Assembly (NCBI GenBank): GCA_014860745.1
Contig: JACZJC010000039.1
Location: forward strand, 1-64,000
DNA: 64,000 nucleotides
Origin: Anaerolineales bacterium
GTDB lineage: Bacteria > Chloroflexota > Anaerolineae > Anaerolineales > Villigracilaceae
Direction of reading: 5' to 3'
The translations under genes and the position numbers were made by a program. The notes below the pieces were generated by a model, which ran no database searches, was not told the origin of the DNA, and saw only the letters and a program-made list of their open reading frames with translations. This document shows, one piece after another, positions 3,767-52,576 of this stretch; the first letter of the stretch is position 1, and every line of letters begins with the position of its first letter.

Positions 3767-3815
3767 ATCCACCCGAATCATTGTTTAATAGACCAAACCC
3801 ACCAAGGAGAATATC

Positions 3816-3998: not shown

Positions 3999-4015
3999 TC
4001 GTCTGCGCCAATCGT

Positions 4016-4041
4016 GGAATCCGACCTGCTGATCGGATTCC
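4016..4041 (+). terminator. hairpin after the small gene, weak terminator
   Basis: GGAATCCGA and TCGGATTCC (9-bp perfect stem, 8-nt loop) begin 17 nt after the stop. No T run follows, so intrinsic termination is uncertain. Confidence 0.45.
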
Positions 4042-4055
4042 ATTTCCCGGCTGGT

Positions 4056-4096
4056 TATAAATATTGAGTCCATCAACTCACTGGCCGATATTTATA
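4056..4096. repeat. nested inverted repeat in intergenic region
   Basis: TATAAATAT at 4056-4064 pairs with ATATTTATA at 4088-4096. Inside, TGAGT (4065-4069) pairs with ACTCA (4076-4080). Together they make an AT-rich hairpin with a 7-nt bulge, about 75 bp before the next gene. It could be an operator or a structured RNA end; function is unknown. Confidence 0.4.
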
Positions 4097-4168
4097 TCGT
4101 CAACCTTTCCGTATCCCTGTTTAAAGCCCCGCTGAACTCATTCCAGAAATTGGTATAAAGCATCGAGA

Positions 4169-6202: not shown

Positions 6203-6208
6203 CGCATC

Positions 6209-7798: not shown

Positions 7799-7948
7799 GG
7801 TTTGTCTTGTCGATTGGATGTTGGATGAAAATATACCACATGCTGAAATCCGACAACCTCCACGTCACCAGCCGTCGCTTGCCAGAATAAAGCCTGTGGT
7901 AAACTCCAAACATTCCATCGCGGCATTCCGAAAAGGCTATTGAATTTT

Positions 7949-9598
7949 ATGCGCTCACCGACCAAATACTCCGTCCTCGCATGGCTGTTGGGGATACCGT
8001 TCAGCTATTTGACTCTCGGGTTTTTGAATAATTTTTATTCCTCCCTTTTTGAAATTCTCCTGCTTGCCATCCTGGTTCATTCCTTCACCAGCCTGTTCAT
8101 TCATTATCTCATCGGACGAGCAAGGTTGGATTTTCGATCCAACCCTGTCGAAGCATGGATCGCAATCGCTTTGTTCACTGGGATAGCGGTCTTCCTGGGG
8201 GTATTGGTCAATATGGCCAGCCGTTTTCCCACCCAATTCGATATGACATTTTACTCGGTGGAACAAAAAGCATTGATCTATTTTTTCGCCGGGCTGGCCG
8301 TATCATTTCCCGCCTCGCACTGGACCTTAGCCTGGATTCGGCAAAAGAATATTCGATCCACCCGTCTCTTTTCATTCGTGGATGGTCACCTGGGCGGTTT
8401 ATTGCTTGCCGCCCTTTTCTTCCTCGTTTATTTCCACCTTTCATCCATTTTCAACCAGCCAATCTTTAGATTCGATGACATTTTTTTCGACACCGACAGC
8501 GAGCTTTGGCGCTGGCGGTTCGCCACGGAATATTACCAGGATTATTATGAACGTACCGTGCATCCCTACGTGCTGATCATCGTCCGCCCATTGGTTTGGG
8601 TGATCTCCCTGTTCCTGAAAGGCAATACGCTTTACGCCACGTTCGCCCTTCTCGCGCTGACCGGCGCGCTCTGCGTTTATCTCGTCTGGTATTTTGTGAA
8701 GGAGACAACGAGGGGATGGTTATATGCCCTCCTGATCGCATCCCTGTTTGGCGCATCGACATCCCAACTCATGTTCGGGTCCTTAATCGAAACCTACGGT
8801 TTTTTGGGGGCGGCGGCATTGATCTTCATCGTCCTCCTGCTAAAGGACAAACCATTGTACGCGCTGGTGATTACAGGGCTGGCCGCGTTTGGCATTACTG
8901 TTTCGAACATTGCCCAAACCTTCATTGCACATCTTGTCGTCAAACGCGATATTAAACAACTGATCAAATACGGCTTGATCGTCGGTGCGCTGGTCGTCCC
9001 GCTCAACCTCTTGAGCGGCTATATTTACCCGGATACCCATCCGTATTTTTGGGACCTGTCCCCGCTGCAGTATGAGGAAAAAAACGTTTTCCCGATAAAC
9101 ATCCAACGCGCTAATTATCTGGCGCGGGTGGTGTTCCTTCACAGTGTGGTGGCCCCTGAGCCTCTTCTTTTGAAAGAGGATATTCCCTTCCTCAAAGTAT
9201 GGATGTTCCGCGCATCCATGAAAAAAGCCCCAATGCAAATCGCCAGCTATGAGACCTGGTTCGATTCGTCCGTCGCTTTCCTCTGGGTTGTGCTTATCCT
9301 TCTGGGAGCCGCGCTTTTCCTGAAAAACTTTTCAAAACAGGATCAGCGATTTTCCTTCGTTTTCATCCTCACCATCCTTTTCTATTTTGTACTGCACCTG
9401 CGCTACGGCAGGGATGTATTCCTTTATTCCTCCAACTGGACATATGCCATCATCCTCACCCTGGCACTTGCCTGGAGGGAGCTTTCAGAAAAAAGATGGT
9501 TCCAGATTTCCCTGCTGGCGTTTATCGTGCTTTTGCTGGCCAATAACTCGCGGTTGATCCTGATCATGCACACCGCGTCGTACCTGCCTTTAAGATAA
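7949..9598 (+). CDS. polytopic membrane protein, possible GT-C-type glycosyltransferase (paralog 2)
   Basis: 549 residues from the ATG at 7949, chosen because AAAAGG lies 12 nt upstream; a TTG at 7940 would add three residues. About 12-13 membrane helices are seen. It shares with its tandem neighbour DDIFFDTDSELWRWRFATE, YERTVHPYVL, the block LTGALCVYLVWYFVK, SLIETYGFL, and HLRYGRDVFLYSSNWTYA. The next paralog starts 3 nt after its stop, so the two are surely co-transcribed. No family name can be given with certainty; a role in envelope glycan assembly is inferred from the motifs and the GT39 gene upstream. Confidence 0.72.
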   Translation: MRSPTKYSVLAWLLGIPFSYLTLGFLNNFYSSLFEILLLAILVHSFTSLFIHYLIGRARLDFRSNPVEAWIAIALFTGIAVFLGVLVNMASRFPTQFDMTFYSVEQKALIYFFAGLAVSFPASHWTLAWIRQKNIRSTRLFSFVDGHLGGLLLAALFFLVYFHLSSIFNQPIFRFDDIFFDTDSELWRWRFATEYYQDYYERTVHPYVLIIVRPLVWVISLFLKGNTLYATFALLALTGALCVYLVWYFVKETTRGWLYALLIASLFGASTSQLMFGSLIETYGFLGAAALIFIVLLLKDKPLYALVITGLAAFGITVSNIAQTFIAHLVVKRDIKQLIKYGLIVGALVVPLNLLSGYIYPDTHPYFWDLSPLQYEEKNVFPINIQRANYLARVVFLHSVVAPEPLLLKEDIPFLKVWMFRASMKKAPMQIASYETWFDSSVAFLWVVLILLGAALFLKNFSKQDQRFSFVFILTILFYFVLHLRYGRDVFLYSSNWTYAIILTLALAWRELSEKRWFQISLLAFIVLLLANNSRLILIMHTASYLPLR

Positions 9599-9601
9599 TC
9601 C

Positions 9602-11248
9602 ATGGAAAAGACCAAACGCCTGATCCCCGCATGGCTGTTGGGCATTCCGCTCAGCTATTTGATGCTCGCTTTCCTGAGCAACTTTTATGCATCACCCATC
9701 GAAACCGGCATTTTAACTCTTTTAATCCATACCTTTGCCGCCCTGTTCATGGATTTACTGGTAGGCAGGGTAAAGCGGGATTTTCAATCCAAGCTTGTGG
9801 AAACCGGGATAGCCGCCACCCTTTTCATGGCGCTCACTGCCTTCGCGTGGATTCTCTTTCAGATGGCCGGGCAGTTTCCCCGTCTGTTCGACGCGGGTTT
9901 TTATCAGCTTGAAACGGGGAAGTTGATCTACTTCATCGTCTCCGTTATTTTTTCCCTGCCGCTGGCTGTGTGGATGAAATCCCTTGCCGGGAAAAACAAT
10001 TTTCAGCAAACAAAATTTTACATATTTTTGGATGAACATCTTGCCGGGCTGACACTCGCCGCGTTTTTCTTTTGGGTCTATTTGATGATCGCCACCATAT
10101 TCAACCAACCCGACTTCAACGCGGATGATATTTTTTTCGACGCAGACAGCAGGCTTTGGCGCTGGCGGTTCGCAACGGAGCAGGTCCGTGATTATTACTG
10201 GCGGCCGGTGCATCCGTTCGTGCTGCTTATCATCCGCCCGTTGGTTTCGGTGATAGCGTTCTTCCTTAAAGGCGACAGTTTGTATGCCGCCTTCACGCTC
10301 GTGGCTTTGACCGGCGCGCTGTGTGTTTATCTCGTCTGGTATTTTGTAAAGAAATCCGTCGGCAATAATTTATACGCGCTGCTCATCGCCGCGTTGTTCG
10401 GGGCCTCCACCGCGCAGCTCGTATTCAGTTCATTGATCGAGACGTATATTTTTCTCGGTGCTGTGGCATTGATCTTCCTCGTGCTTCTGCTTGAAAATAA
10501 GCCGCTTCCCGCGCTGTTGGCCGCGGGCCTGGCCGCCTTTGGCATCACCATCTCGAACTTCGGGCAAACGGTTCTCGCGCACATTCTCATCAAACGCGAC
10601 ATCAAAGAGTGGATTCGATACGGGTTGATTGTGGCCGCGCTTGTGATTCCATTAACCCTCCTGAATAATTTTATCTATCCCGATTCACAGCCTTATTTTT
10701 TCGACCTCTCCTCCTACGACCGCGAGGGGCACAATTCCTTTCCGCCTACGCTTCAACGCGCAAATTATCTGGGACGGGTCATGTTCCTGCACAGTTTTGT
10801 TGCGCCTGAGCCGCTGACCTTTAAGGAGGAGATTCCCTTTCTGAAAGTCTGGATGTTCCGGGCCTCCATTAAAAAAGAACCGATGCGCATCGGCCAGTAT
10901 GAAACCTGGTTTGGCACATCGACGGCTTTCCTCTGGCTGGGGTTTATGGTGTTGGGCGGGATTTTATTTCTGAAAAACCTGCGAAGACAGGATAACCGCT
11001 TCTTCCTGACCCTCGGCCTGATCCTGCTCTTCAACTTTACGCTTCACCTGCAATACGGCAAGGATGTATTTCTCTACGCCGTCAACTGGACCTATGCCAT
11101 TGTCATTTTTCTTGCGCTGGCATGGAAGGAACTTGCCGAAAAAAGATGGTTTCAAATTTCGCTGCTTGTGTTCATCGGTTTGCTGCTCGTCAATAATTCA
11201 CAGTTGATCGAAACGATGCTGAATGCATCGGGATTGTATATTAAATAA
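9602..11248 (+). CDS. polytopic membrane protein, possible GT-C-type glycosyltransferase (paralog 3)
   Basis: 548 residues, tandem duplicate of the preceding gene with long identical stretches such as LTGALCVYLVWYFVK and PFLKVWMFRASIKKEPM. Signature motifs are DDIFFDADSRLWRWRFATE, YYWRPVHPFVL, SLIETYIFL and LQYGKDVFLYAVNWTYA. There is no own ribosome site and only 3 nt after the upstream stop, so translation is likely coupled. The closeness of paralogs 2 and 3 points to a duplication more recent than the split from the 4169 gene. A bidirectional terminator follows. Confidence 0.72.
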   Translation: MEKTKRLIPAWLLGIPLSYLMLAFLSNFYASPIETGILTLLIHTFAALFMDLLVGRVKRDFQSKLVETGIAATLFMALTAFAWILFQMAGQFPRLFDAGFYQLETGKLIYFIVSVIFSLPLAVWMKSLAGKNNFQQTKFYIFLDEHLAGLTLAAFFFWVYLMIATIFNQPDFNADDIFFDADSRLWRWRFATEQVRDYYWRPVHPFVLLIIRPLVSVIAFFLKGDSLYAAFTLVALTGALCVYLVWYFVKKSVGNNLYALLIAALFGASTAQLVFSSLIETYIFLGAVALIFLVLLLENKPLPALLAAGLAAFGITISNFGQTVLAHILIKRDIKEWIRYGLIVAALVIPLTLLNNFIYPDSQPYFFDLSSYDREGHNSFPPTLQRANYLGRVMFLHSFVAPEPLTFKEEIPFLKVWMFRASIKKEPMRIGQYETWFGTSTAFLWLGFMVLGGILFLKNLRRQDNRFFLTLGLILLFNFTLHLQYGKDVFLYAVNWTYAIVIFLALAWKELAEKRWFQISLLVFIGLLLVNNSQLIETMLNASGLYIK

Positions 11249-11380
11249 CGCAGGGTGCGCCCGCATCCTTTAGATTGCTTTAAAGGAGATACCTGACCCA
11301 AAGCCATTTACTGCTCTCACCTTTGTATCTTTGCATTAAATCTTATTCACGTTTTACATGGGGCAGCCTGAGTTTAATAA

Positions 11381-11414
11381 AAAATTGTGACCGTTAATCG
11401 GTCACAATTTTTTT
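11381..11414. terminator. bidirectional terminator between convergent genes
   Basis: AAATTGTGACCG and CGGTCACAATTT pair around TTAAT, flanked by A and T runs, so it can stop transcription from both sides (genes ending at 11248 and 11426). Confidence 0.92.
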
Positions 11415-11425
11415 ATATGTTGAAT

Positions 11426-11800
11426 TTATTTCTTACCTTTTAACTCGTCACGCAGGATCAGGCTCATGAAAATACTGACGAGGCTGATGACGATGCTGCC
11501 AAGCAGGGCCTGCCAGAAACCGTCCACAGTAAAACTGATCCCAAAGGACTGGCCGATGTTGCTGGTAAGCATCAGCAGGACGGTGTTGATCACGAAAGTG
11601 AAGAGCCCCAGGGTGAGAATGATGAGCGGGCAGGTGAGGAATTTTAACAGGGGGCGCACCAAGGCGTTGAGCAAACCGAAGATGAGCGCCAGCCAGAGAA
11701 TGCCCGTCCATTCACCGATGTAATCGATGCCCGGCACCACCAGCACTGCCACATACAAGGCAACGGCGTTGATGGCCCAGCGAATCAGAAATTTTGTCAT
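11426..11800 (-). CDS. phage-holin-family / YvlD-like small membrane protein
   Basis: 124 residues with four predicted membrane helices and the family features AINAVALYVAVLVVPGI, FGLLNALVRPLLKFLTCPL and a last helix ending in a charged tail. It matches the widespread 'phage holin family 4'/YvlD group of chromosomal membrane proteins, whose role is unknown and which are not necessarily phage-derived. AAGGAGTACGA before the ATG is a strong ribosome site. No phage gene is nearby. Confidence 0.85.
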   Translation of the reverse strand: MTKFLIRWAINAVALYVAVLVVPGIDYIGEWTGILWLALIFGLLNALVRPLLKFLTCPLIILTLGLFTFVINTVLLMLTSNIGQSFGISFTVDGFWQALLGSIVISLVSIFMSLILRDELKGKK

Positions 11801-11877
11801 TCGTACTCCTTTTTAATGTTTATGTCATTGCAATGCAATGTGCGTCCGCAATGACATACATTAATACGAAAAAACTT

Positions 11878-12852
11878 CTAGGAAGTTGCCTGCATCCAAA
11901 TCAATGTGCGGAGCGGTTTGAAGCCTGCGGCGAGGATGGCGTCGTCGAATGGGCTGGTGGGAAAGTCCAGGGCAATGTTTGGATACAGATGATAGACCTC
12001 GCGGCGCGCGTGGATGAGTAATGCGGTCAACGCATCAGGGTCGGACCGTTCGCCTGCCGCTGCAAAGAGGCTTTCCCCACGCCCGGTGGGAATCCACGAA
12101 AGGGTGGCTTGTAATTGGTACTTCCGTACAGCCGCCCATTGACGGATGTTCATATCCACGAAAAGCAGGTAGAGCCAGTTCCACAGACCCGGCCGAAGGG
12201 AGTTGAAATTCCAGTCGCGGTGCCAGCCTAACAGGTCGGGGTAGAGGCGCGAAAGCCAGTTGAGTTGAGTCGGCCAGAAGGTTGGATGTCGGCTTGTTAT
12301 GGCAATGTCAGTTTCCAATCTCTGGGCATGAAGGTCAGAGGAGGCCTGCCATGAGGTGCGGCGGGCGCGTTCGATAAAACCGAGCCTGGTGTAAAGTTCG
12401 ATGGCTGCAGGGTTATCGTGGCGGACGTGAAGCCAGACATTGCTTACTTTTTTTTCACGGGCGTGCTGCATGGCGCGTTCGGTGAGAGCACGGGCGATTC
12501 CCTTGCGGCGATGGTCAGGATGTACTGCGACGTTGGCGATGAGATAGATACGTTGTTTTTGATATCGAAACGGGACGAGGCTGGTGTTGGCGATGATGCA
12601 CCCGTTCTCCTCCCAAATGTATCCAGTCAACGGCAGGGAAGTGGTTTCGGCGGCACGGTTGGCCCATTTAATGAAAGAGTTATCACTGCCCGCGCGGCGC
12701 ATATCCTGCACATAGCGTTTGCCTTCGCTGTCCATGGTGTCGGAGAAGCATAGTTCAATGAGGTCTGCCACGGCGGGCAGGTCCCGCAATATGCTGAGCG
12801 GGCGCAGGTGGGGGCGCTGGGCTCCCTGCGCGGGTATGGTGATGGAGGACAT
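11878..12852 (-). CDS. GNAT-family N-acetyltransferase with extra C-terminal half
   Basis: 324 residues. Residues about 15-175 form a GNAT fold that moves an acetyl group from acetyl-CoA; the CoA loop is seen in VHPDHRRKGIARALTERAM, followed by HDNPAAIELYTRLGFIE. The C-terminal 130 residues resemble a degenerate second GNAT half, with ALTALLIHARREVYHLYPN and a closing AGFKPLRTLIWMQ. The substrate is unknown. TATAAT (12864-12859 on this strand) is exactly 6 nt before the ATG, so the transcript is probably leaderless. Confidence 0.85.
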   Translation of the reverse strand: MSSITIPAQGAQRPHLRPLSILRDLPAVADLIELCFSDTMDSEGKRYVQDMRRAGSDNSFIKWANRAAETTSLPLTGYIWEENGCIIANTSLVPFRYQKQRIYLIANVAVHPDHRRKGIARALTERAMQHAREKKVSNVWLHVRHDNPAAIELYTRLGFIERARRTSWQASSDLHAQRLETDIAITSRHPTFWPTQLNWLSRLYPDLLGWHRDWNFNSLRPGLWNWLYLLFVDMNIRQWAAVRKYQLQATLSWIPTGRGESLFAAAGERSDPDALTALLIHARREVYHLYPNIALDFPTSPFDDAILAAGFKPLRTLIWMQATS

Positions 12853-12858
12853 GAGGAT

Positions 12859-12864
12859 ATTATA
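12859..12864 (-). promoter_or_regulatory. -10 box six nt from the start codon (leaderless)
   Basis: TATAAT-N6-ATG on the minus strand. The start point would coincide with the start codon of the GNAT gene. Confidence 0.6.
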
Positions 12865-13003
12865 GTCTCGTTGGGAAGATTTTTTGAAGGAGCGGGGCGT
12901 ATATTCTTTTCATACTGCAGACTGGGCATCTATCCACTGTACTGCAAGAACCATTCTCGGGCGCTTGCAGCAAGAAATCCTCATTAAAAAGGATAACCCT
13001 GAA

Positions 13004-13540
13004 ATGACTGCAAATGATGTAATTGAGTTTCTTAAACTCCTCAACGATAGCGGTATCGACGCATGTGTAGATGGCGGGTGGGGAGTTGATGCCTTGTTAG
13101 GTAGGCAAACCCGTCCTCACGCCGATCTAGATATTGCAGTCCAGCACAAAGACGTACCCCAAATTCGAGCCTTGCTTGAAGCGAGAGGCTATAAGGATGT
13201 GATTCGGGATGATACCCGAGATTGTAATTTTGTTTTAGGAGATGATAGGGGGCATCTAATTGATGTTCATTCTTATACCTTCGATGCTGAAGGAAGTATT
13301 GTGTTTGGCGTTGAATACCCGTACGATTCACTTACAGGAACGGGCTCGATCAACGGGTTGCCAATAAAATGCATCACTCCGGAATGGATGGTGAAATTCC
13401 ATTCCGGGTACAAACTTGACGATAATGATTACCATGACGTTAAATTGCTATGCCAAAAATTCGGGTTTGAATTACCTTTGGAATATGCAGAATTTGAATT
13501 GAAGGAAAACAAACATTCTTCAAACAGGCAAAGTGAATAA
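13004..13540 (+). CDS. lincosamide/aminoglycoside-type nucleotidyltransferase
   Basis: 178 residues. The fold and motifs fit the small LnuA/LinA and ANT(2'')-like nucleotidyltransferases that adenylylate antibiotics: CVDGGWGVDALLGRQTR, then HADLDIAV with the metal-binding aspartates, LIDVHSYTF, and WMVKFHSGYKLDDNDYHD as in Lnu proteins. The start at 13004 is chosen because AAGGA lies 10 nt before it. The true substrate could be an antibiotic or another small molecule. It is isolated, divergent from the GNAT gene, and its codon use looks more AT-rich than its neighbours, which may mean later acquisition. Confidence 0.8.
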   Translation: MTANDVIEFLKLLNDSGIDACVDGGWGVDALLGRQTRPHADLDIAVQHKDVPQIRALLEARGYKDVIRDDTRDCNFVLGDDRGHLIDVHSYTFDAEGSIVFGVEYPYDSLTGTGSINGLPIKCITPEWMVKFHSGYKLDDNDYHDVKLLCQKFGFELPLEYAEFELKENKHSSNRQSE

Positions 13541-13926
13541 TCCATGCGCGGCACAACCTGCGTCGGAAGGAAGGGATGCTTAAGGTGCGGCATTCACAAG
13601 GATTCACTACCTGGCCTACGGATGGAGGGCAGGCAGGCTTCGTTTTTTTCCAATCCTGAATCATTCTTGCAGGAGGTCCGGAGAGGGTCGAAGTCAACGG
13701 AGAAAAATCCTGAACATAAAAATCCACATTCTGACGATGGTGAGTGAGCAATTTACCCCTGGCTCCATCGACATCACCTTGCGTTAATTCTCCCGGCTTC
13801 ATACTACCATCATCAAGAACATGATGAAAAATTGCTCGCCTGGAAGAACGGGAACGGAAACCCTTAGCCTGCCCCAAAATCTAACACATCTCTTACGCCC
13901 TATTGATAATTCGTCCATGCGGCTTT
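13541..13926. other. gene-free stretch, nothing firmly recognised
   Basis: About 390 bp between the nucleotidyltransferase and the clpC promoter. Short open frames exist on both strands, but none has a ribosome site or a familiar motif, and they overlap the nucleotidyltransferase end or stop early. It may hold remains of a decayed gene. Confidence 0.4.
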
Positions 13927-13935
13927 TGTTATAAT
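13927..13935 (+). promoter_or_regulatory. extended -10 promoter of clpC
   Basis: TGT-TATAAT at 13927-13935 is a consensus -10 with a TG extension. No good -35 stands at 17 bp, which fits an extended -10 promoter. The start point would be near 13942, so the palindrome below lies in the leader. Confidence 0.65.
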
Positions 13936-13948
13936 GCCCCCATTGGCT

Positions 13949-13979
13949 GACGATGGACCACAATCATTGGACCATCGTC
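13949..13979 (+). promoter_or_regulatory. inverted repeat in the clpC leader, candidate operator
   Basis: GACGATGG (13949-13956) and CCATCGTC (13972-13979) are perfect arms; after one mismatch the inner CCA/TGG also match, giving 31-bp dyad symmetry. It sits just after the predicted start point and before GGAGGT. It is not the CIRCE sequence bound by HrcA, nor the CtsR direct repeat. It could be a repressor site or a hairpin that affects translation. Confidence 0.55.
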
Positions 13980-13998
13980 CCAACGGAGGTACCACCCT

Positions 13999-16476
13999 AT
14001 GATGAGATTTGACAGATTTACCGAGAGAGCACAGGAAGCCGCCCAGCGCGCGGCTGAAATTATCCAACGCTATGGCCACAACCAGATTGACACCGAGCAC
14101 ATCCTGCTGGCGTTGATCGAACAGCCCGGCGGCGTGATTCCCCAAATCCTCGAAAAATTAAGCGTCAGTGCCGAAGCGTTAACGGAGCGGCTCGATGCGA
14201 CTCTGCGTGCCAGCCCGAAGGCAAATATCTTCGGCGGCGGCGCAGGACAGATATTTATTACGCCTCGCGTCAAGCGGATCATTGATCTGGCAAACGAAGA
14301 GGCGAATCGTCTGAAAGATGAATACATTTCCACAGAGCACATCTTTTTGGCCATTCTCACCGAGCGCAACACACCCGCCGCCCGCATTTTAGAGTCTGCC
14401 GGGCTGTCGCGTGACCGCGTCTACGACGCCATTCAAGACCTGCGCGGCGGACAACGAGTCACCGACCCGCAAGCCGAAACCAAATACCGCACGCTTGAAA
14501 AATATTCGCGCGACTTAACTCAACTCGCACGCGAAGGCAAGCTCGATCCGGTCATCGGCCGCGACAAGGAAATTTTACGGCTCATCCAAATCCTGTCCCG
14601 CCGCACCAAGAACAACCCGGTATTGATCGGTGAAGCAGGCGTGGGCAAAACTGCCATTGCCGAAGGTCTCGCGCAAAAGATTGCCACCAACGACATTCCT
14701 GAAATTCTTTCCGGAAAACGGGTGGTTGCCCTGGATCTGGGCGCGATGATCGCAGGTTCCCGCTTCCGCGGCGAATTCGAAGAACGTCTCAAAGCCGTCA
14801 TGGACGAAGTGCAGCGCGCGAAGGGCGATGTCATTTTGATGATCGACGAGTTGCATACAGTCATCGGAGCAGGAGCAGCCCAGGGCGCGATGGATGCGAG
14901 TAACATGCTCAAGCCCGCGCTGGCCCGCGGCGAGCTCCAATGCATTGGCGCGACCACGCTGGACGAATTCCATAAACATATCGAAAAAGATGCCGCGCTC
15001 GAACGCCGCTTCGCCCCCATTTATGTGGACGAGCCAAGCGTGGAAGATACGATCAAGATGCTGCACGGATTGCGTGACCGCTATGAAGCACATCACAAAG
15101 TCCACTTTGCGGACGATGCCCTTGAAGCCGCCGCCCGGCTTGCAGACCGCTACGTGACCGACCGTCACCTGCCCGATAAAGCCATCGACCTGATGGACGA
15201 AGCCGCGGCAAAATTGCGCGTAGCGCTTTATTCCATGCCGCCCGATCTTAAGGCAATGAAAACCGATATCGATAAAATGCATGCGGAAGAGGAACAGGCC
15301 GGCCTAGAACGCGATTACGAACGCGCCGCGCAAAAGAAAGCCGAACGCCTGCGCCTCGAACAGGAATATAACGCCAAGCGCGATAAATGGGAATCGGAGC
15401 ATCAGCTCGACGAGGTGGTGGATGTGGATGATATTGCATCCGTTGTCCACCAGTGGACGGGCATCCCATTGACGCAGATGATGGAAACCGAATCGGAAAA
15501 ACTGCTGCACATGGAAGCGCGTTTGCACGAACGCATTATTGGGCAGGAGGAAGCTATTCACGCCATCTCCGATGCCATCCGCCGCGCACGCTCCGGTTTG
15601 AAAGATCCCGCAAGACCGATTGGTTCATTCATTTTTATTGGGCCTTCGGGTGTTGGGAAGACCGAACTTGCAAAAGCCCTCGCATGGTTCATGTTCGATG
15701 ATGAAGAGGCGCTGGTCCGCATTGACATGTCGGAGTATCGTGAACAGCACACGGTCAGCCGCCTGTTCGGTGCGCCGCCCGGATACGTGGGGTACGAGGA
15801 AGGCGGTCAACTCACTGAAGCGGTTCGACGCAGACCCTATCGGGTTCTGCTTTTCGATGAAATCGAAAAGGCTCATCCCGAGGTCTGGAATGCGCTGCTC
15901 CAAATACTGGATGACGGACGCATGACAGACGGCCAGGGCAATGTGGTTGATTTCCGCAATACGGTTCTCATCATGACCTCGAACCTGGGCACGGAATACG
16001 TAAAGAAGAGCGGCACATTGGGCTTCCTCCCGCATAAATCAGGCGACGAAGATCGGGAAGCACACAACAAGATCGAGAAGGCTCTCAAAGATGCATTCCG
16101 CCCCGAGTTCCTGAACCGCATTGACGAGATCATCATGTTCTCGCCGCTTTCACTCGAGCAAATGGAAGAGATCGTGGTGCTGCAAATGAAGGAAGTGCAG
16201 GACCGCCTTAACGAGCACAATATTACCGTGCAGATGACCGACTCCGCCCGCGCCTGGCTGGCAAAGGAGGGCTACGATCCTGCCTTTGGAGCGCGTCCGT
16301 TACGGCGGGCAATCCAAAAATATGTCGAGAGTCCGCTTTCGGTGGAACTGCTCGGCGGAAAGTTCAAGGATGGAGCCGTGGTGATCGTGGATGTGAACGA
16401 GAAGGAAAACAAGATCATATTCCATACCGAAGCCCCATCCCATTCCAAAAAGACAAAAGAGAAGGTGGAAGCCTGA
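13999..16476 (+). CDS. clpC: ATP-dependent Clp protease ATPase subunit ClpC
   Basis: 825 residues, a normal ClpC length. It unfolds proteins and feeds them to ClpP in the cytoplasm. The order is: double Clp N-domain (1-150, starting [15 protein letters not shown]), first AAA+ module with GEAGVGKT at about 211, a short middle domain containing a UVR-like motif ([19 protein letters not shown]), second AAA+ module with [15 protein letters not shown] at about 548, and the [19 protein letters not shown]-terminal domain. The short middle domain separates it from ClpB. GGAGGT before the double ATG fixes the start. No clpP lies in the window. A heat- or stress-responsive control is suggested by the leader palindrome. 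Confidence 0.95.
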
Positions 16477-44439: not shown

Positions 44440-45399
44440 TTACAAATGGCGGGAACTGCGCGGGTCGAAGGCATCGCGCAAACCGTCGCCCACCAGGTTA
44501 ATGCTCAAGATCGTGAACACGATGAACAAGCTGGGGAAAACCCACATCCACCACGAGCCCCGTTGAATGAACTGCTGAGCCTGGGTTAACATATTGCCCC
44601 ATGAAGCCGTTGGGGGCTGCACACCAAGACCAAGGAATGATACATACGCTTCGGAAAGGATCGCGCCTGCCAGGCCGAGCGTTGAGGCGACGATGATTGC
44701 GCCCATGGTATTTGGAATGAGATGCCGGAAAAAAATCTGAGTGTTGTTCGCGCCCAACGCCTTTGAGGCAGAAATGTAATCCATTTCCTTCAAAGACAGG
44801 ACATTGGCGCGCACAATTCTCGCAAGGACCATCCACGAAGTCAACCCGATGACCAGGATTACAATCGCAACGCTTCCGCTGAACGTCCTGCCAAATATTT
44901 CAATCGATTGCACATCCTTTCCAAAATATTTTCCAAGCACGATCAACAAGAAGAGCGATGGAATGGACAGCATAGCTTCGGTGAACCGCATCAGGATCGA
45001 GTCCACCCACCCGCCGTAAAATGCAGCGACGCCGCCAATGACCGTCCCAGCGCTAACAGAAAGAATCACAGCCAATATCCCAACAAGCAGGGAAATTTGT
45101 CCACCATGAATAATACGCGCAAAGAGATCGCGTCCTGTACTATCCGTCCCCATCCAATGTTCTGCAGAAGGCGGACTTAGACGTCCAGCCGGGTCAACCA
45201 CATTTGCCTTCTCCTCGGTAACAAGAACAGATCCAATCACAATAAAGATGAGAAGCAGGATAAAACCGATCATGCCAAGCATCGCCATGCGGTGTTTTCG
45301 GAATCGTCTCCAAATCAATTCCCGAGGTGTCAGAGCAACACTTGTTGTTTCTCGCTCGAGAATTGGAACATCGGATGTAGTAGCTGTTTGTGTGACCAT
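44440..45399 (-). CDS. peptide-type ABC transporter permease (DppC/OppC)
   Basis: 319 residues with six membrane helices. The N-terminal signature of this subfamily is seen (WRRFRKHRMAMLGMIGFILL), then LMGTDSTGRDLFARIIHGGQ-like sequence (HWMGTDSTGRDLFARII) and the EAA-type loop ASKALGANNTQIFFRHLIPN that contacts the ATPase. The end INLVGDGLRDAFDPR is typical. Partner of the DppB-type permease 25 nt upstream. No ATPase gene is next to it. Confidence 0.94.
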   Translation of the reverse strand: MVTQTATTSDVPILERETTSVALTPRELIWRRFRKHRMAMLGMIGFILLLIFIVIGSVLVTEEKANVVDPAGRLSPPSAEHWMGTDSTGRDLFARIIHGGQISLLVGILAVILSVSAGTVIGGVAAFYGGWVDSILMRFTEAMLSIPSLFLLIVLGKYFGKDVQSIEIFGRTFSGSVAIVILVIGLTSWMVLARIVRANVLSLKEMDYISASKALGANNTQIFFRHLIPNTMGAIIVASTLGLAGAILSEAYVSFLGLGVQPPTASWGNMLTQAQQFIQRGSWWMWVFPSLFIVFTILSINLVGDGLRDAFDPRSSRHL

Positions 45400-45424
45400 A
45401 TGTATTTACTCCACCGGAAAATTA

Positions 45425-46384
45425 TCAACTAAGCCGAATGCGGGGATCTACAAATGTATAGACGATATCCGTAATAATTGTGAATATTACAACAGCGGTA
45501 GAGATGATGAGCAAAATACCAAGTACTACCGGGAAGTCGCCGCGCTGTGCATATTCCCAGAAAAGGCGGCCCATCCCCGGCCAGGCGTATACCTGTTCAG
45601 TCACAAGCGCACCTCCGAGCAAAAAGGGAATATCCAACCCGATGATCGTAACAAGAGGCAAAGCAGCGTTGCGCAGGGCATGTTTGAACAGTACCGCCCG
45701 GCTGGTCAAACCTTTTGCGCGGGCAGTGCGGACATAATCCAAACCCAGCACTTCGAGCATACTTGCACGAATATAGCGCGCATATCCGGCGGTAAGAATG
45801 ATAACAAGGGCGGAAACCGGCAGGATCAGATGTTGAATAAGTTCGACAGGATCCTTTTTATCCCAAATATCTGCGCCGGTCGGTAGATAAGGCAATCCCC
45901 ATGCCTTGAACTGAACCGAAAAGATCAGCATCAAACCTAAGGCGATAAAAAAGATGGGCATTGAAAACCCGATAAACGACAAAGTAGTAATAACATTGTC
46001 CACAACTGAATATTGCTTGACAGCTGAGAGAATACCCAACACAAGTGCAAGGGAAACAGTAATGATCTCCGCAGTTACCATGAGAATAAGCGTATTCGGA
46101 AGGCGCTGGGAAATCATCAACGAGACAGGCTGTTTTGAAAAGAAGGAGTTACCAAGTTCACCCTGAAGTGCGAGACCGAGCCATTTGAAATACTGGACTG
46201 GCAAAGGGTCATTCAAACCAAGTCGTTCGCGCAATGCTTCCCGATCTTCTGTGGTCATACGTGCGCTGGTCGCATACTGTGCCATGGGGTCCGCTGACAG
46301 GCGCGTGAGGATAAAGCATAATACCGTAATAATCAGAAGAGTAAAAATCGCTTGAATCATTCGCCGAAAAAGATAGGACCACAT
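45425..46384 (-). CDS. peptide-type ABC transporter permease (DppB/OppB)
   Basis: 319 residues: MWSYLFRRMIQAIFTLLIIT at the start, RLGLNDPLPVQYFKWLGLAL, PNTLILMVTAEIITVSLALV, and the EAA-type loop TARAKGLTSRAVLFKHALRN. The closing DIVYTFVDPRIRLS is family-typical. It lies between the binding protein gene and the DppC-type permease; a hairpin stands between it and the binding protein gene, which usually lets the binding protein be made in excess. Confidence 0.94.
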   Translation of the reverse strand: MWSYLFRRMIQAIFTLLIITVLCFILTRLSADPMAQYATSARMTTEDREALRERLGLNDPLPVQYFKWLGLALQGELGNSFFSKQPVSLMISQRLPNTLILMVTAEIITVSLALVLGILSAVKQYSVVDNVITTLSFIGFSMPIFFIALGLMLIFSVQFKAWGLPYLPTGADIWDKKDPVELIQHLILPVSALVIILTAGYARYIRASMLEVLGLDYVRTARAKGLTSRAVLFKHALRNAALPLVTIIGLDIPFLLGGALVTEQVYAWPGMGRLFWEYAQRGDFPVVLGILLIISTAVVIFTIITDIVYTFVDPRIRLS

Positions 46385-46466
46385 GGAAACCTCCGTGTTG
46401 GGCTTTTCATACCAATATGGAATTCCTCTGTCTGGATTGGTATAAAATGCACGATGCGGGATATTG

Positions 46467-46498
46467 AACGAGGGGCAGAATTAATTCTGCCCCTCGTT
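46467..46498 (-). terminator. hairpin between binding protein and permease genes
   Basis: AACGAGGGGCAGAATT and AATTCTGCCCCTCGTT form a perfect palindrome. The T run on the minus strand is short, so partial termination or 3'-end protection is likely. Confidence 0.7.
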
Positions 46499-46520
46499 TT
46501 TCAACTATGGAACGATTTTA

Positions 46521-48314
46521 CTATTTTACATCCCAGGCTTCAGAGTTCCAGTTCAGGTTACTGAAGAAGCCGAAGGGGGCGGGGACAAAACGGTCGGTGT
46601 GACCGTATACATTGGCGCGGGCATACATCATGACAACGTAGTAATTATCATAGATGTACTTCTGCAATTCATCAATCGCGGTCTTGCGGGCAGCAGGATC
46701 GGCAGTTGCATTCGCGGCAGCCAGCAGATCATCCAAAGCGGGATCACAGATGAGATAATTGTTAGCGCCAGAGGGGGAAGCCGCATTCGGCACGTTCGCA
46801 CAAGAATAGCTATCCAACACACCAGTCATCGGATCAGGATAGAAACCAGTAGTGTATCCAGCCATGTTGTAGTTGCCAGTCGGCATTACACCACTATCCG
46901 CATAGCTTCCGAAGAAGGTGCCTGCAGGTGTGTGGATCGGTTTGAATTCAACGCCGATCTTGGCAAGGTCAGACTGCACGATAGTGGCAATGTCGATGCG
47001 AATCTGTGAAGTGGTGGTCTCGAAGTTGAAGGAGAGTTTCACGGTCTCGCCATTGCACTCGCCTGCGCGAATGCCATCAGCGCCGAGGGTGTAGCCGGCT
47101 GTGTCAAGCAAAGCGGCTGCTTCATCGGGATTATAGGCATCCGGGGTCAGGGAGCTGTTTGTCCAGGAAGAGTTCGGCCATTGGGTGGAAGGAACAGTGG
47201 TCTTGCCTTCGAGGAGTGTATCTACAATGGCCTGGCGATTAATACCAAGGGTAATGGCCTTGCGGACGTTAACATCCTTGAATGGGCAGAAGCCGTCTTG
47301 ATCAGCGGCACCCTTGCCATCAACGCCGGTAGTTGTGCCGAGATTGAAGAAATAATGTTCGAAATCAGCGCCAGGAACCACAATCAGGTGAACATCAGGT
47401 TCGAGCGCGCCAACAGTGGAGATTTCAGCTTCGCTGAAGTTCGGGAACCAGTCCACATCGCCGGTCTGCAGGGCAGCCAAAGCAGTGGCAGGATCGGGAA
47501 TGAAGCGGATCTGAACCTGGTCAAGTTTTGGCCGTCCACCATGGAAATTCGGGTTGGGAAGCAAAGTCATGTAATCGCCCGGAATCCATTCGGTAATGAC
47601 CCAGGGGCCGGAACCAACGGTGGGCTGGTGAATGAAATCATTGCTTTCCAGAGCAGACTGTCCTTCAAGAATGTGCATGGGCAGAATTGCACCGGAGTTA
47701 TTGGGGCCTTGTGTGAAGAGGGTCTGCCAGCCGGGATACAGTTCGCTGAAAGTAATGACAACTGTAGTTTCATCGGGGGTATCAATACTGGCGATCTTCT
47801 CATAACCACTGCGGCTCAACACAGCATTACCAGGATCCATAACGGCTTCCCAGGTGAACTTAACATCCGAAGAGGTAAGGGGTTCGCCATCCGACCAGAA
47901 AAGGCATTCGCGCAGTTTCCAAGTGATGGTCAAGCCATCGGCGGAAACGCCACCATTTTCGGCAGAGGGAACTTCTGCGGCCAGTTCAGCCACAAAGTTA
48001 CCATCAGCATCCCACTCGCCCAAACCAGCCAAGGTCAACTGAGTGATCCAGATCGCATAAGACATCTGACTGAAGTAAGGAACAATGCTATCGGGTTCCT
48101 GATCCCAGGCGCCAGTAACTGTCTTGCCGCCATCAGGGAATGCAATCGGCTCGGTGCCAGCAGGCTCACAAGCTGCCGCTTCAGATGCCGAAGGGGCTTC
48201 CGTCACCGAAGGGGCTTCCGTTGCAGGTGCCTCTGTGGGAGTGCCTCCACATGCCGCAAGGACAACACTCGCGAGTACCAGCAACGAAAGTAGAACAGAA
48301 AGTTTTCGTTTCAC
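46521..48314 (-). CDS. family-5 peptide/oligosaccharide-binding lipoprotein, canonical order
   Basis: 597 residues starting with GTG after GGAGGAGAAAC. A lipobox (VVLAACGG) and an Ala/Thr/Pro linker precede the binding domain, which has the ordinary order of SBP_bac_5: TGAWDQEPDSIVPYFSQMSY, then ADGLTITWKLRECLFWSDGE with SSDVKFTWEAV, then TPDETTVVITFSELYPGW, PTVGSGPWVITEWIPGDY, NVRKAITLGINRQAIVDTLL, and a C-terminal domain ending in MMYARANVYGHTDRF. The ligand may be a peptide or another small molecule. It is a useful reference for the permuted relative at 50834-52576. Confidence 0.93.
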   Translation of the reverse strand: MKRKLSVLLSLLVLASVVLAACGGTPTEAPATEAPSVTEAPSASEAAACEPAGTEPIAFPDGGKTVTGAWDQEPDSIVPYFSQMSYAIWITQLTLAGLGEWDADGNFVAELAAEVPSAENGGVSADGLTITWKLRECLFWSDGEPLTSSDVKFTWEAVMDPGNAVLSRSGYEKIASIDTPDETTVVITFSELYPGWQTLFTQGPNNSGAILPMHILEGQSALESNDFIHQPTVGSGPWVITEWIPGDYMTLLPNPNFHGGRPKLDQVQIRFIPDPATALAALQTGDVDWFPNFSEAEISTVGALEPDVHLIVVPGADFEHYFFNLGTTTGVDGKGAADQDGFCPFKDVNVRKAITLGINRQAIVDTLLEGKTTVPSTQWPNSSWTNSSLTPDAYNPDEAAALLDTAGYTLGADGIRAGECNGETVKLSFNFETTTSQIRIDIATIVQSDLAKIGVEFKPIHTPAGTFFGSYADSGVMPTGNYNMAGYTTGFYPDPMTGVLDSYSCANVPNAASPSGANNYLICDPALDDLLAAANATADPAARKTAIDELQKYIYDNYYVVMMYARANVYGHTDRFVPAPFGFFSNLNWNSEAWDVK

Positions 48315-48650
48315 GTTTCTCCTCCTTAGAGAAATTGTTTAAATGGAGATTAGAGGGGGAAAGTACTCTCTCCTCATGCCTCCCGACGGTTTAAATTATA
48401 CAGCAATAATCAAATCTACCATATAGGAGTGGAGGATCCAATGCCCTAGCACCCTACTTCAGGAGGGTTTTTTATTGCCAGTTTGCCGGCCCAACCCAAT
48501 GTACCCGATCCCTCTAATCCAATTCGCAGGGAAGGCATTCCGCTTCCTTCCCCGCTGACAACTGATACCATCACATTGGAAATCCCCTCCCCCCAACCGG
48601 ACAAAGCCCACAAAGCACGAAATTCAACATCCACTCACAATCCCAAAATA
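48315..48650. other. gene-free stretch upstream of the first binding-protein gene
   Basis: About 335 bp. TATAAT on the minus strand at 48400-48395 may be the -10 box for the gene starting at 48314, with a leader of about 74 nt. Short open frames on either strand have neither ribosome sites nor known motifs. I see no other feature. Confidence 0.4.
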
Positions 48651-48679
48651 AAAAAACGACCTGGTTGCCAGGTCGTTTT
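48651..48679 (-). terminator. terminator of the second ABC operon
   Basis: AAAACGACCTGG-TTG-CCAGGTCGTTTT with an A run that becomes a T run on the minus strand, downstream of the permease gene ending at 48697. Confidence 0.9.
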
Positions 48680-48696
48680 AAAGGCTGAAGAATCTC

Positions 48697-49659
48697 TCAC
48701 GAACTCGCATGCACCAATCGCGGATCAAGCGCATCGCGCAAACCATCGCCTACCAGATTGAAGGCGAGCACGGTGAGCATGATCGCAAAACCCGGATAGA
48801 ACACAAGATGCGGGGCAGTGAACACCTGGTTGCGTTCCGCGCCCAGCATGGAACCCCATTCCGGTGTGGGGGGCTGCGCGCCGAGGCCAATAAAGGAAAG
48901 CGCGGCTGCATCCAAAATCGCGGAAGCGATGCCGAGAGTCCCTTGCACAATGAGCGGGGTCAAAGCGTTTGGCAGGATACATTTGAAAAGAATATCGTAG
49001 GTATTTCCGCCAAGCGAGCGTGTGGCAGAAACAAAATCCATTTCGCGGACGGTCAGCACAGACGCCCGCATGACCCGCGCATAAGCCGGGATGGAGACGA
49101 TCCCAATTGCAAGCAGGGCATTGATAAGCCCCGGACCAAGAACCGTGACGATGGCGATGGCCAGCAAAAGCGAAGGAAATGCCAGGAGCACATCCATCAC
49201 ACGCATAATGACATTATCCAGCCAGCCGCCAAAGTAGCCTGCCATCGCGCCCAGTACGGTCCCGATAATGATGGCAAAAGTGACCGTGGAAAAACCCACC
49301 ATCAGGCTTAAACGCGAACCATAGATCAAGCGGCTGTACTGATCGCGCAAATTTCCGTCCACTCCTGCAATATGCTGAGGCTGGTCTTCAGGGCAGCCTA
49401 GCAGGTGGATGCATGGCGCGGAACGCGCCTTTATTTTTTGCGGCGGGTCGGCATCCAGCATCGAAATTGTCGGGTCGTACGGGGCAAGCATCGGGGCGGC
49501 AAGAGCGATGAAGATCAACGTGCCAAGGATGACAAGTCCCACCATGGCAGAGCGGCGGCGGAATAATCTGCGCCAGGTAATCTGCCATAAATTAACCGAA
49601 CGAAGGGTTAAACCCTCTGTGTCAAGTTTGGCGATGGTGTCGGTGGTTTCGGTTGTCAT
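48697..49659 (-). CDS. peptide-type ABC transporter permease (DppC/OppC)
   Basis: 320 residues with six membrane helices. LWQITWRRLFRRRSAMVGLV marks the start; a soluble insertion with the cysteines of CIHLLGCPEDQPQHIAG lies between helices 1 and 2, as in many Chloroflexota DppC proteins; the EAA-type loop is ATRSLGGNTYDILFKCILPN, and NLVGDGLRDALDPR closes. It lies 10 nt after the DppB-type gene. There is no ATPase gene in the operon. Confidence 0.94.
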   Translation of the reverse strand: MTTETTDTIAKLDTEGLTLRSVNLWQITWRRLFRRRSAMVGLVILGTLIFIALAAPMLAPYDPTISMLDADPPQKIKARSAPCIHLLGCPEDQPQHIAGVDGNLRDQYSRLIYGSRLSLMVGFSTVTFAIIIGTVLGAMAGYFGGWLDNVIMRVMDVLLAFPSLLLAIAIVTVLGPGLINALLAIGIVSIPAYARVMRASVLTVREMDFVSATRSLGGNTYDILFKCILPNALTPLIVQGTLGIASAILDAAALSFIGLGAQPPTPEWGSMLGAERNQVFTAPHLVFYPGFAIMLTVLAFNLVGDGLRDALDPRLVHASS

Positions 49660-49669
49660 TTCAAAGTTC

Positions 49670-50749
49670 CTAACTAATGCGGATGCGCGGGTCGAGGTAG
49701 GCGTACGAAATATCCACCAGCAGGTTGATCGCTACATAGAAAATCGCGATCACCAGAGTAAATGCCTGCACGATCACATAATCACGAGCTGTAATTGCCT
49801 CATATAACGTGCGGCCAAGGCCGGAGAGTCCGAAAATAGTTTCGGTCAATACCGCGCCGCCCAGCAAACCTCCCAATGATAGGCCGATAACCGTGACAAG
49901 CGGAAGGAGGGAATTTCGGAATGCGTGCTTTAAAACCACTGCGGTCTTCCCCAATCCCTTTGCACGAGCTGTACGAATATAATCCTGCCCCAATACGTCC
50001 AGCATGGCGGAACGGGTCATGCGCGCGATCAACGCCATGGGAATCGTACCAAGCGCAACTGCTGGAAGAATAAGATGTTTTATAGCATCCTTGAGTAAAT
50101 CCCAGTTTGCGGTAAGAATCGCGTTTAGGATGTTCAACCGGCTGAGGAATACAAGCAGGGACGACCACAAACCGCTTTCAGGAAGCACCCATCCCCAAAC
50201 CTCATAGAATGGATCATTCGACATACCCGCACTGATGCGGCCGGATGGGGGCAGCCAAAACGGCGTATCTTTTAATAGAAGGGAAAATACATAAGCCAGC
50301 ATCAAACCCAGCCAGAAGACCGGCATGGAGACACCCGTATTCGCCCACATCATCGTAAGTACATCGATCCATGAATTATGTTTTACAGCGGAGATCACTC
50401 CCAAAGGAATGCCGACCACGATGCTAATGAGCAATGCCGCGAAACTCAGCTCAACTGTGGTAGGCAGGCGCTCCACCAGCAGACGGGTAACGGGCAGGCT
50501 TAGACGTATCGAATTGCCGAAATCACCCCGAAAGACTTCACCGATGTAAATAAAAAGTTGAGTATAAATGGGCCGATCCAGGCCTTTTTCATGGATGAAA
50601 CGTTCGCAAACTGCTGCGGTTGCCTTTTCACCAAGGATGGACCGGCATGGATCACCGGGAATAACACGAGCAATAATAAAAGTAACAATGAGAATTCCAA
50701 ACAAGACCGGAATGGAAGCGAACACCCTGCGCAAAAAGTATTGAATCAT
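49670..50749 (-). CDS. peptide-type ABC transporter permease (DppB/OppB)
   Basis: 359 residues: MIQYFLRRVFASIPVLFGIL, VIPGDPCRSILGEKATAAVC, PTTVELSFAALLISIVVGIP, EAA-type loop TARAKGLGKTAVVLKHAFRN, and the end DISYAYLDPRIRIS. It is longer than the paralog at 45425-46384 because of an extra loop around 165-215. A hairpin separates it from the binding protein gene upstream. Confidence 0.94.
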   Translation of the reverse strand: MIQYFLRRVFASIPVLFGILIVTFIIARVIPGDPCRSILGEKATAAVCERFIHEKGLDRPIYTQLFIYIGEVFRGDFGNSIRLSLPVTRLLVERLPTTVELSFAALLISIVVGIPLGVISAVKHNSWIDVLTMMWANTGVSMPVFWLGLMLAYVFSLLLKDTPFWLPPSGRISAGMSNDPFYEVWGWVLPESGLWSSLLVFLSRLNILNAILTANWDLLKDAIKHLILPAVALGTIPMALIARMTRSAMLDVLGQDYIRTARAKGLGKTAVVLKHAFRNSLLPLVTVIGLSLGGLLGGAVLTETIFGLSGLGRTLYEAITARDYVIVQAFTLVIAIFYVAINLLVDISYAYLDPRIRIS

Positions 50750-50833: not shown

Positions 50834-52576
50834 TTATCCGCCGGGTTTCTTCATCAAGCCCCAGAGGTAATCATAGTAGAAGAAGGTACCTGTGTTGCCT
50901 TTGTGGGTCGGGGATGCAATATTGAGACCCATGTTGAAGGTCGCAACCACATCGGCTGCATCGAAGGCAGACCCGTCAGAGAAGGTGACACCCTGGCGCA
51001 AGGCGCAGGTCCAAACGGTCAGGTCATCGTTCGGCGTGCAGGATTCAGCAAGAGCAGGAACGGTATCCGTGCCGTTGACTACGTAGGAGTAGAGAGCTTC
51101 TGTAACCTGTTCGCAAGCGCGGAGGGATTCACCATCGGACTCATCCGCACAGAACATACTGATCGGTTCGGCGTTCTGCATCCAGACGAAGACATCACGG
51201 CCACCGGGATCGGAGACGGCAAAGTATTCATTGGTGAGCGGGCTGGCTTGCTGGTTGGTCACGTCAGCGCGATAGGCTGTGGCGGAACCACCATGGGCAA
51301 CAGGGATCATCGGAACGAATTCGCGAATGGCGTTGTTTGCTTCCACGTAAATGGATTCTGCATCCGCGGGGATGCCGATCTGAGCGCCCTGGACAAGCAG
51401 ATCAGTATAGGTGTCAGATTGATTTCCGAACTGCGGGTTGGCAGCACCGAAGTGATAGTCCAGGAAGTTGGTGATATGAGGATAATCCGCACCCCAACCG
51501 AGCAGGTACAAACCATCCAAAGAGCCGGTGCCGGAGGCATCGATGAAAGCACCGGATTCCATGACAACGATCTCAGCATCGATGTTCAGATTTTCCTTCA
51601 ATTGAGCCTGAATATCTTGGGCAACAGTGCTGACATTCGGGAGGTAACCGCGTACCACGTCACGATAGTACAACTTGGTCTTGAAACCATCAGGGAAGCC
51701 GGCTTCAGCCAGCTTGGCTTTCGCGGCTGTAGCGTCAAATTCATACCAGGCATCGCCCACACAACCGTTGGGGATGGCACAGGGAGTGAAGTGGGAGGCA
51801 ACTTCCGAGCCGGCAGGATAGAAGTTATCCACAATGCGCTGGCGGTCGATGCCCATGGCAATGGCCTGGCGGACGCCCTGATTATCAAACGGAGCGAAGG
51901 TGTTGGTCATGCCGACATAGAACACATTCAAAGCCGGGCGTTCAACGAGGGAGAGGTTTGAATCGCCGCGGACAGTATCGAAATCCTCAGGTCCAACATT
52001 GTCCATGCCGTCAATCGTGCCGGACTGCAGTTCAAGCAGGCGGGCAGCAGATTCTGAAGACCAGCGGAAGACTATCGTCTCAGCTTCGGGTGCATCGCCC
52101 CAATGGGTAGGATTGGCGGTAAAGGTAATGCTCTCACCGCGATTCCATTCGCTGACTACATAAGCGCCGGTACCAATTGGCTTCTCGAGAAGATCAGTGG
52201 TGGAAGCCGATTCAAGCCACTCAGATGGATAGATCGAGAATGGGCTGAAGGCAATCTTCGAGAGGAAGGCTGGATCCGGACGGCACAGCGTGAAGGTAAC
52301 GGTATTGGCATCCGTCGCAACTACAGATTGGACAGCGCCAATATAATCACCGTTACACTCCTCGGCGGGCACAGAGAGTGAAGTGCCGTCAAAGGTGGCA
52401 ATTGAAACATCGGGGATCGGCGCCTCAGTGGCAGCTACCTCAGTAGCAACAGGGGCTTCGGTGGCAGCAGGGGCATCAGTGGCAGCAGGGGCTTCAGTAG
52501 CAGCACCGCCGCAGGCCGCAAGCAATACGCTTGCAAGCACTACCAACGAAAGTAGAACAGAAAGGTTTTTTTTCAC
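50834..52576 (-). CDS. family-5 ABC binding lipoprotein with circularly permuted domain
   Basis: 580 residues, GTG start after GGAGGAGAAAC, lipobox with Cys22 (VLLAACGG), Ala/Thr/Pro repeats to about 52. The binding domain then starts in the middle of the usual order: AVQSVVATDANTVTFTLCRP (81-100), KPIGTGAYVVSEWNRGES, NQGVRQAIAMGIDRQRIVDN, and the C-lobe up to about 450. What normally opens the domain comes last (462-580): VFVWMQNAEPISMFCADESD, VTEALYSYV, VPALAESC, CALRQGVTFSDGSAFDAADV, THKGNTGTFFYYDYLWGLM. One open frame covers all, with its own signal and stop. The fold should still close since both ends of the family lie in the same lobe. Ligand unknown. Confidence 0.88.
   Translation of the reverse strand: MKKNLSVLLSLVVLASVLLAACGGAATEAPAATDAPAATEAPVATEVAATEAPIPDVSIATFDGTSLSVPAEECNGDYIGAVQSVVATDANTVTFTLCRPDPAFLSKIAFSPFSIYPSEWLESASTTDLLEKPIGTGAYVVSEWNRGESITFTANPTHWGDAPEAETIVFRWSSESAARLLELQSGTIDGMDNVGPEDFDTVRGDSNLSLVERPALNVFYVGMTNTFAPFDNQGVRQAIAMGIDRQRIVDNFYPAGSEVASHFTPCAIPNGCVGDAWYEFDATAAKAKLAEAGFPDGFKTKLYYRDVVRGYLPNVSTVAQDIQAQLKENLNIDAEIVVMESGAFIDASGTGSLDGLYLLGWGADYPHITNFLDYHFGAANPQFGNQSDTYTDLLVQGAQIGIPADAESIYVEANNAIREFVPMIPVAHGGSATAYRADVTNQQASPLTNEYFAVSDPGGRDVFVWMQNAEPISMFCADESDGESLRACEQVTEALYSYVVNGTDTVPALAESCTPNDDLTVWTCALRQGVTFSDGSAFDAADVVATFNMGLNIASPTHKGNTGTFFYYDYLWGLMKKPGG

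Follow-up and report, generated by a model that had tools for sequence, protein, structure and literature searches.

The dipeptide-binding protein DppA of Escherichia coli belongs, with the other members of the DppA/GbpA/HbpA group, to the SBP_bac_5 family (cluster C) of ABC substrate-binding proteins. According to the available text of one source, Asp408 of DppA forms a salt bridge with the amino end of the bound dipeptide, and HbpA2, a protein of the same group, is without this residue (PMC3295651). The title of PDB entry 8z1z names a mutated pair, Arg383 and Asp436, which is read here as the precursor numbering of Arg355 and Asp408. For the related OppA, the available part of another source assigns residues 1–44, 189–269, and 487–517 to domain I, 45–188 to domain II, and 270–486 to domain III (PMC6305025). 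The protein described here, encoded in a window of 64,000 nucleotides from an Anaerolineales genome (contig JACZJC010000039.1), shares with DppA the homology over nearly the whole length, the Arg355/Asp408 pair, the predicted fold over 385 residues, and neighboring DppB and DppC genes. It differs from DppA in a swap of the chain between DppA residues 118 and 124, in a tether on domain II, and in two additional cysteines, Cys74 and Cys98.

Among tethered ABC substrate-binding proteins, natural circular permutation is already known from TpMglB-2 (Tp0684) of Treponema pallidum, a sugar-binding lipoprotein classified as "Type Ic / Cluster Bc" (PMC4990184, available text). As in the window protein, the N-terminal strands of TpMglB-2 have moved to the C-terminus. 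However, TpMglB-2 belongs to structural cluster B and binds another ligand, and its permutation requires a fourth hinge crossing, whereas the window protein keeps both of its crossings. Moreover, the moved part of TpMglB-2 shows poor sequence conservation, whereas that of the window protein is clearly homologous (PMC4990184 for TpMglB-2, available text).

In the literature searched, no description of a permuted cluster C (SBP_bac_5) binding protein was found. A reading of the DNA made from the sequence alone (the sequence-only reading) had likewise known of none; this stands for SBP_bac_5, although a permuted member of a different binding-protein cluster has been described, as PMC4990184 reports.

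Engineered circularly permuted binding-protein biosensors demonstrate that permuted binding-protein folds can work. These are laboratory-made, whereas the window protein is natural.

A binding-protein gene with swapped segments

The gene is a single open frame that begins with GTG, as the sequence-only reading had proposed, and lies on the minus strand. Its parts and the two permease genes are listed below; the DNA coordinates of the parts were converted from protein positions.

50834–52576, minus strand: gene for a circularly permuted SBP_bac_5 (DppA-type) lipoprotein, 580 amino acids, GTG start
52415–52576, minus strand: residues 1–54, lipoprotein signal (lipobox LLAAC with Cys22, read from the sequence) and linker rich in Ala, Thr, Pro, and Glu
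52346–52414, minus strand: residues 55–77, new N-terminal stretch with the permutation-specific Cys74 (29/29 sequences)
51212–52342, minus strand: residues 79–455, segment homologous to DppA 124–504
50849–51196, minus strand: residues 461–576, segment homologous to DppA 2–118 (the normal N-terminus, here C-terminal)
49670–50749, minus strand: DppB-type permease, Pfam BPD_transp_1; NCBIfam Opp2B 309 bits (cut-off 350) and DppB 299 bits (cut-off 590), both under the cut-off
48697–49659, minus strand: DppC-type permease, Pfam BPD_transp_1 and OppC_N; NCBIfam GsiD 290 bits (cut-off 484) and DppC 285 bits (cut-off 483), both under the cut-off

SBP_bac_5 (PF00496) was the sole Pfam family found in the protein, with 251 bits against a curated cut-off of 32.4. 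The match did not follow the profile from its start to its end along the chain: profile positions 64–365 aligned with residues 81–380, and positions 3–55 followed at residues 506–558 (DNA 50903–51061), the two swapped matches that the sequence-only reading had predicted for such a comparison. A phmmer search against the PDB gave the same picture with chain 3m8u, where query residues 475–569 matched chain positions 17–118 (i-E 2.1e-5) and residues 82–447 matched positions 126–497. When a profile of 29 sequences was compared with E. coli DppA (1dpp), positions 72–446 aligned with DppA 124–504 (235 bits) and positions 452–561 with DppA 2–118 (65 bits). DppA is thus covered in swapped order apart from residues 119–123 and the extreme ends, so that both segments are homologous to one protein, in exchanged positions and over nearly its full length. 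The paralog at 46521–48314 (minus strand) in the same window has the normal order, its residues 118–508 aligning with profile positions 7–366, also as previously read. The NCBIfam DppA equivalog model gave the permuted protein 162 bits, far below its cut-off of 1005. Among 60 of the 113 PDB chains listed, none had its best stretch past profile position 452, and hence no solved permuted member was found there.

Residues 79–455 comprise the rest of domain II, the core of domain I, the whole of domain III, and the end of domain I. The stretch preceding residue 79 varies in length across the permuted proteins and holds the invariant Cys74. Cys22 is invariant as well (29/29 aligned permuted sequences), and with its lipobox cysteine and permease neighbors the gene product has the features of an ABC importer lipoprotein.

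Relatives were gathered in a named collection, for which the best 80 of 473 relatives were kept, all titled Chloroflexota; the isolates Bellilinea caldifistulae GOMI-1 and Thermanaerothrix daxensis GNS-1 are among these 80 permuted loci. Alignment A1 contains the window protein and 28 of the 29 further loci, with L008 omitted; A2 combines the window protein with 66 of the 80 named loci, and A3 combines it with 53. A classifier based on two profiles assigned 154 open frames to the permuted order, 15 to the normal order, and 8 to the main part only, with none mixed; since the loci were fetched with permuted queries, these counts are not a population frequency. The frames repeat some genes (126 distinct sequences in the cysteine count below, 127 tips in the FastTree tree). 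The gap between the two profile matches was 4–14 residues in all 154 permuted frames (repeats included), and no more than 20 residues lay beyond the moved segment in 151 of them.

Ligand residues and transporter genes

Arg355 and Asp408 of DppA correspond to Arg309 and Asp364 of the window protein, which were invariant in 29/29 and 67/67 sequences. In a more diverse permuted set, Arg309 was kept in 23 and Asp364 in 25 of 28 sequences. The permuted protein would bind a dipeptide-like ligand in the usual flytrap manner and pass it to DppBC.

Genes resembling both dppB and dppC were present within 2.5 kb downstream in 69 of the 80 named loci; a further 7 loci had a single one of them, and 4 had none. 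At least two ATPase frames occurred within 5.5 kb in 16/80 of these loci. A motif scan detected no ATPase gene beside the window operon, and all eight oligo_HPY matches of the host genome are on other contigs; the window permease therefore probably borrows its ATPases. In the window itself, two sets of binding protein, permease, and permease, one permuted and one normal, adjoin at 44440–50749, with no ATPase gene found beside them. In another genome (L162, G403:C68), two tandem permuted binding-protein genes precede DppB-, DppC-, and ATPase-like genes. The genes downstream in locus L088, judged by their first residues, are presumably of CoaE type and other housekeeping genes, which give no clue to the substrate.

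Origin of the permutation and a second case in Clostridia

The permuted Chloroflexota proteins formed one group apart from the normal-order proteins, with a FastTree support of 0.974 (127 tips against 15 normal) and an IQ-TREE support of 100/100 (29 rows); the IQ-TREE tree was built from 54 rows chosen by hand to cover both orders, with four normal rows on very long branches. The nearest normal-order group depended on the tree: it was L154/L157/L170/L171 with FastTree, and with IQ-TREE L168/L169 stood nearby, as a possible sister group. The roots were set by the analyst or at the midpoint. The permuted order is taken as derived because the other relatives examined have the normal order, and not from a root. 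The permutation may have arisen when the gene was duplicated in tandem and in frame and the outer halves were subsequently lost.

Among plasmid records, none of the 88 with a match to the junction-spanning query from the window had at least 80% of the query covered. Four plasmid matches to the window protein were fetched, of which those from Deinococcus (L174 and L176) and Paracoccus (L177) had the normal order and the fourth, L175, was permuted. A viral source was also considered, and no relative was found in viral contigs (13 pattern matches, 0 confirmed).

L175 is a record of Subdoligranulum variabile (OY725879.1), in which positions 3333–5123 encode a permuted, OppA-like SBP_bac_5 lipoprotein as the last gene in the order oppC-D-F-A. 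It is cut in the same loop as the window protein, with Pfam positions 61–367 followed by 2–62 (64–365 followed by 3–55 in the window protein). In contrast to the latter, it belongs to the OppA subfamily, has a different gene order, and is without a Cys pair at the cut. The L175 protein grouped with normal OppA proteins at 100/100 (IQ-TREE), and forcing all permuted rows together was rejected in the AU test (p-AU 0.0005), which argues for a separate origin of the L175 permutation, resting on a single record. A junction query from L175 found 718 records with a place covering at least 80% of it; among the 15 rows listed, its own was the only one in one piece. The L175 protein carries a Ser/Ala-rich C-terminal tail that resembles a lipoprotein linker.

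Cysteine pairs and fusions at the new N-terminus

Cys74, just ahead of the first strand, and Cys98, past the first hairpin, occurred together in 125 of the 126 distinct permuted sequences, and none of 15 normal-order sequences had a cysteine in either window. The sole miss, L106, is a contig cut at its 5' end, and the cysteine that L106 shows before position 79 is a slicing artefact. Where the 5' end was present, a cysteine occurred within the 18 residues before position 79 in all 125 distinct permuted sequences. A disulfide between Cys74 and Cys98 would pin the new N-terminus to the first beta-hairpin. Further close cysteine pairs, 266/272, 476/488, and 513/524, were seen in 21, 26, and 21 of 28 permuted sequences, respectively, with a cysteine at each of these positions in at most 1 of 12 normal-order sequences; they are perhaps local disulfides.

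At eight loci, the permuted domain is placed behind a binding protein of a different type within one open frame:

SBP_bac_3 ahead of the permuted domain: L079, L110 (8074–10530), and L166 (3089–5530)
Peripla_BP_6 ahead of the permuted domain: L092, L100, and L142
SBP_bac_1 ahead of the permuted domain: L164 (3162–6032)
PnrA-like Bmp ahead of the permuted domain: L163

The Peripla_BP_6 score of L142 lies just under the cut-off because this protein was analysed with Pfam as a shortened sequence. A lipobox-like motif is present near the start of the frame in five fusions (L079, L092, L110, L164, and L166), and DppB- and DppC-like genes follow L100, L110, L164, and L166. The four fusions included in the tree (L092, L110, L163, and L164) are not adjacent, which suggests that such fusions arose several times. 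The L163 frame (4345–15885, G022:C1) encodes 3847 aa with a signal-like start, the PnrA-like Bmp domain, a C-terminal SBP5 half, a permuted SBP5, and an InlB-type repeat match. Such a frame may encode a giant surface protein, or it may be a hybrid created by assembly.

These features bear on whether the permutation matters to the protein. That a duplication and deletion became fixed a single time and left tethering and transport unaffected is a serious possibility, to which we give a little under an even chance: the predicted fold, the ligand residues, and the permease neighbors resemble those of an ordinary Dpp system, a normal-order paralog is encoded in the same window, and no obvious advantage is reported for the permuted MglB-2 either (PMC4990184, available text). 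Set against such a neutral history are the nearly invariant Cys pair at the new N-terminus, the second opening of the same loop in one Clostridia record, and the joining of other binding proteins to the new N-terminus at eight loci, although none of these shows an advantage.

Predicted fold, hinge and tether

The full chain was modelled by AlphaFold2 (67 sequences) with a mean pLDDT of 88.3 and a pTM of 0.85, in agreement with the single fold expected from the sequence-only reading. Apart from residues 21–49, no three consecutive residues had a pLDDT below 50. Confidence remained high through the join of the old ends, and from residue 461 onward the block means were 85–98 (87–98 for residues 461–570). 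Residues 55–77 were modelled at pLDDT 85–97 per block. The earlier assignment of the start of the mature part to AVQSVV does not hold, as this confidently modelled stretch with its invariant Cys74 precedes it.

The model superposed on 1dpp with Z 28.8 and 2.3 Å over 385 residues (model 58–458 on DppA 98–507), and it has the two-lobe cluster C fold, as a prediction and over an alignment without residues 461–576. Because the alignment covers approximately model residues 55–460, the packing of 461–576 rests on AlphaFold2 confidence and homology. The alignment pairs model residue 58 with DppA 98, and by sequence DppA 98–118 belongs to the C-terminal segment; in the model, the place of DppA 98–118 may be partly occupied by the new N-terminal stretch.

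The C-terminal segment might instead be swapped onto a neighboring molecule, as in a domain-swapped dimer, or act alone. We regard this as very unlikely. The model is a monomer whose structural alignment leaves residues 461–576 outside, which would leave room for such an arrangement, but residues 440–580 were poorly predicted alone (pLDDT 66.3, pTM 0.56) and confidently as part of the full chain, a contrast that argues against an independent domain, and the 4–14 residue gap joins ends that are both in domain I. The model of the 440–580 fragment gave weak matches (Z 4.7–5.7; Z 4.9 and 5.1 Å with 1dpp), and in all 50 rows listed these were, by name, to SBP_bac_5-type proteins near their N-terminal ends.

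With the OppA boundaries of PMC6305025 (available part), the cut site corresponds to OppA 118–125, inside domain II, and the lobe crossings at OppA 269/270 and 486/487 fall at residues 215/216 and 430/431. Both crossings are within the unbroken first 455 residues, and the hinge is hence as in DppA. The sequence-only reading had expected both the membrane tether and the hinge strands to change place. The first part agrees with the alignment, by which the lipid tether shifts from domain I to domain II; the second does not, given the position of the crossings. In the proposed arrangement, a linker of ~5 residues would connect the old termini, which are both in domain I, and the new termini would open in a domain II loop between DppA 118 and 124. 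Mechanically, the protein would be suspended from the membrane through domain II rather than domain I, and both hinge crossings would stay as they are.

Judged by the sequence profiles and the predicted model, the protein is a genuine, conserved, and natural circularly permuted member of the SBP_bac_5 superfamily, in line with the main claim of the sequence-only reading. With high confidence, we consider the gene to encode the substrate-binding lipoprotein of a Dpp-type ABC importer, predicted to be functional, and its chain to be a natural circular permutation of DppA.

Conservation across Chloroflexota

Homologs spanning the junction in a single open frame were found in 31 of the 61 genomes searched (its own included), in 13 families of one taxonomic order; a row was counted if its match began no later than residue 69 and extended to residue 570 or beyond. 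Across the phylum they were present in at least 56 of 400 genomes (matches that began no later than position 136 and extended to at least 563), a lower bound since at most three candidates were scored per genome, among the matches listed. Identity to the window protein was 49–92% in 28 relatives. Comparisons with six relatives over both segments gave dN/dS values of 0.02–0.16 in 11 of 12 cases and 0.30 in the other; with dS above 1 in 11/12, near saturation in most, these values are rough. The permuted gene is under purifying selection, as these computations show.

An assembly or frame artefact, in which a normal gene had been split and put together incorrectly in this bin, is practically negligible: the window does come from a draft genome of 82 contigs, but the same arrangement, uninterrupted in frame and complete with signal and stop codon, recurs in many independently assembled genomes, isolates included, and dN/dS is low on both segments. 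The doubt about misassembly raised in the sequence-only reading is removed by these independent genomes, which share the junction.

Implications

A permuted ABC binding protein had been described in another cluster, and for the permuted cluster C form no prior description was found. Tentatively, and with less than even confidence, the domain II loop of cluster C proteins may be a recurrent natural permutation point that was opened in Chloroflexota (in a DppA-like protein) and, independently of this, in Clostridia (in an OppA-like protein). The anchor would have moved from domain I to domain II and, in Chloroflexota, been pinned by a new disulfide. The free N-terminus would then serve as a docking site to which unrelated binding proteins (SBP_bac_3, Peripla_BP_6, SBP_bac_1, and PnrA-like) were attached on several occasions; the resulting fusions would be receptors for two ligands that supply a single Dpp permease.

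Annotation and structure searches that depend on chain order detect only part of a permuted protein. The domain II loop is suggested as a natural permissive site for the engineering of peptide-binding proteins. Natural circular permutations whose homologs still have the original order are useful test cases. Since the fold, the ligand residues, and the permease neighbors resemble those of normal-order relatives, one of them encoded in the same window, the effect of relocating the tether and the chain ends of a flytrap receptor would be directly measurable, with cultured isolates at hand.
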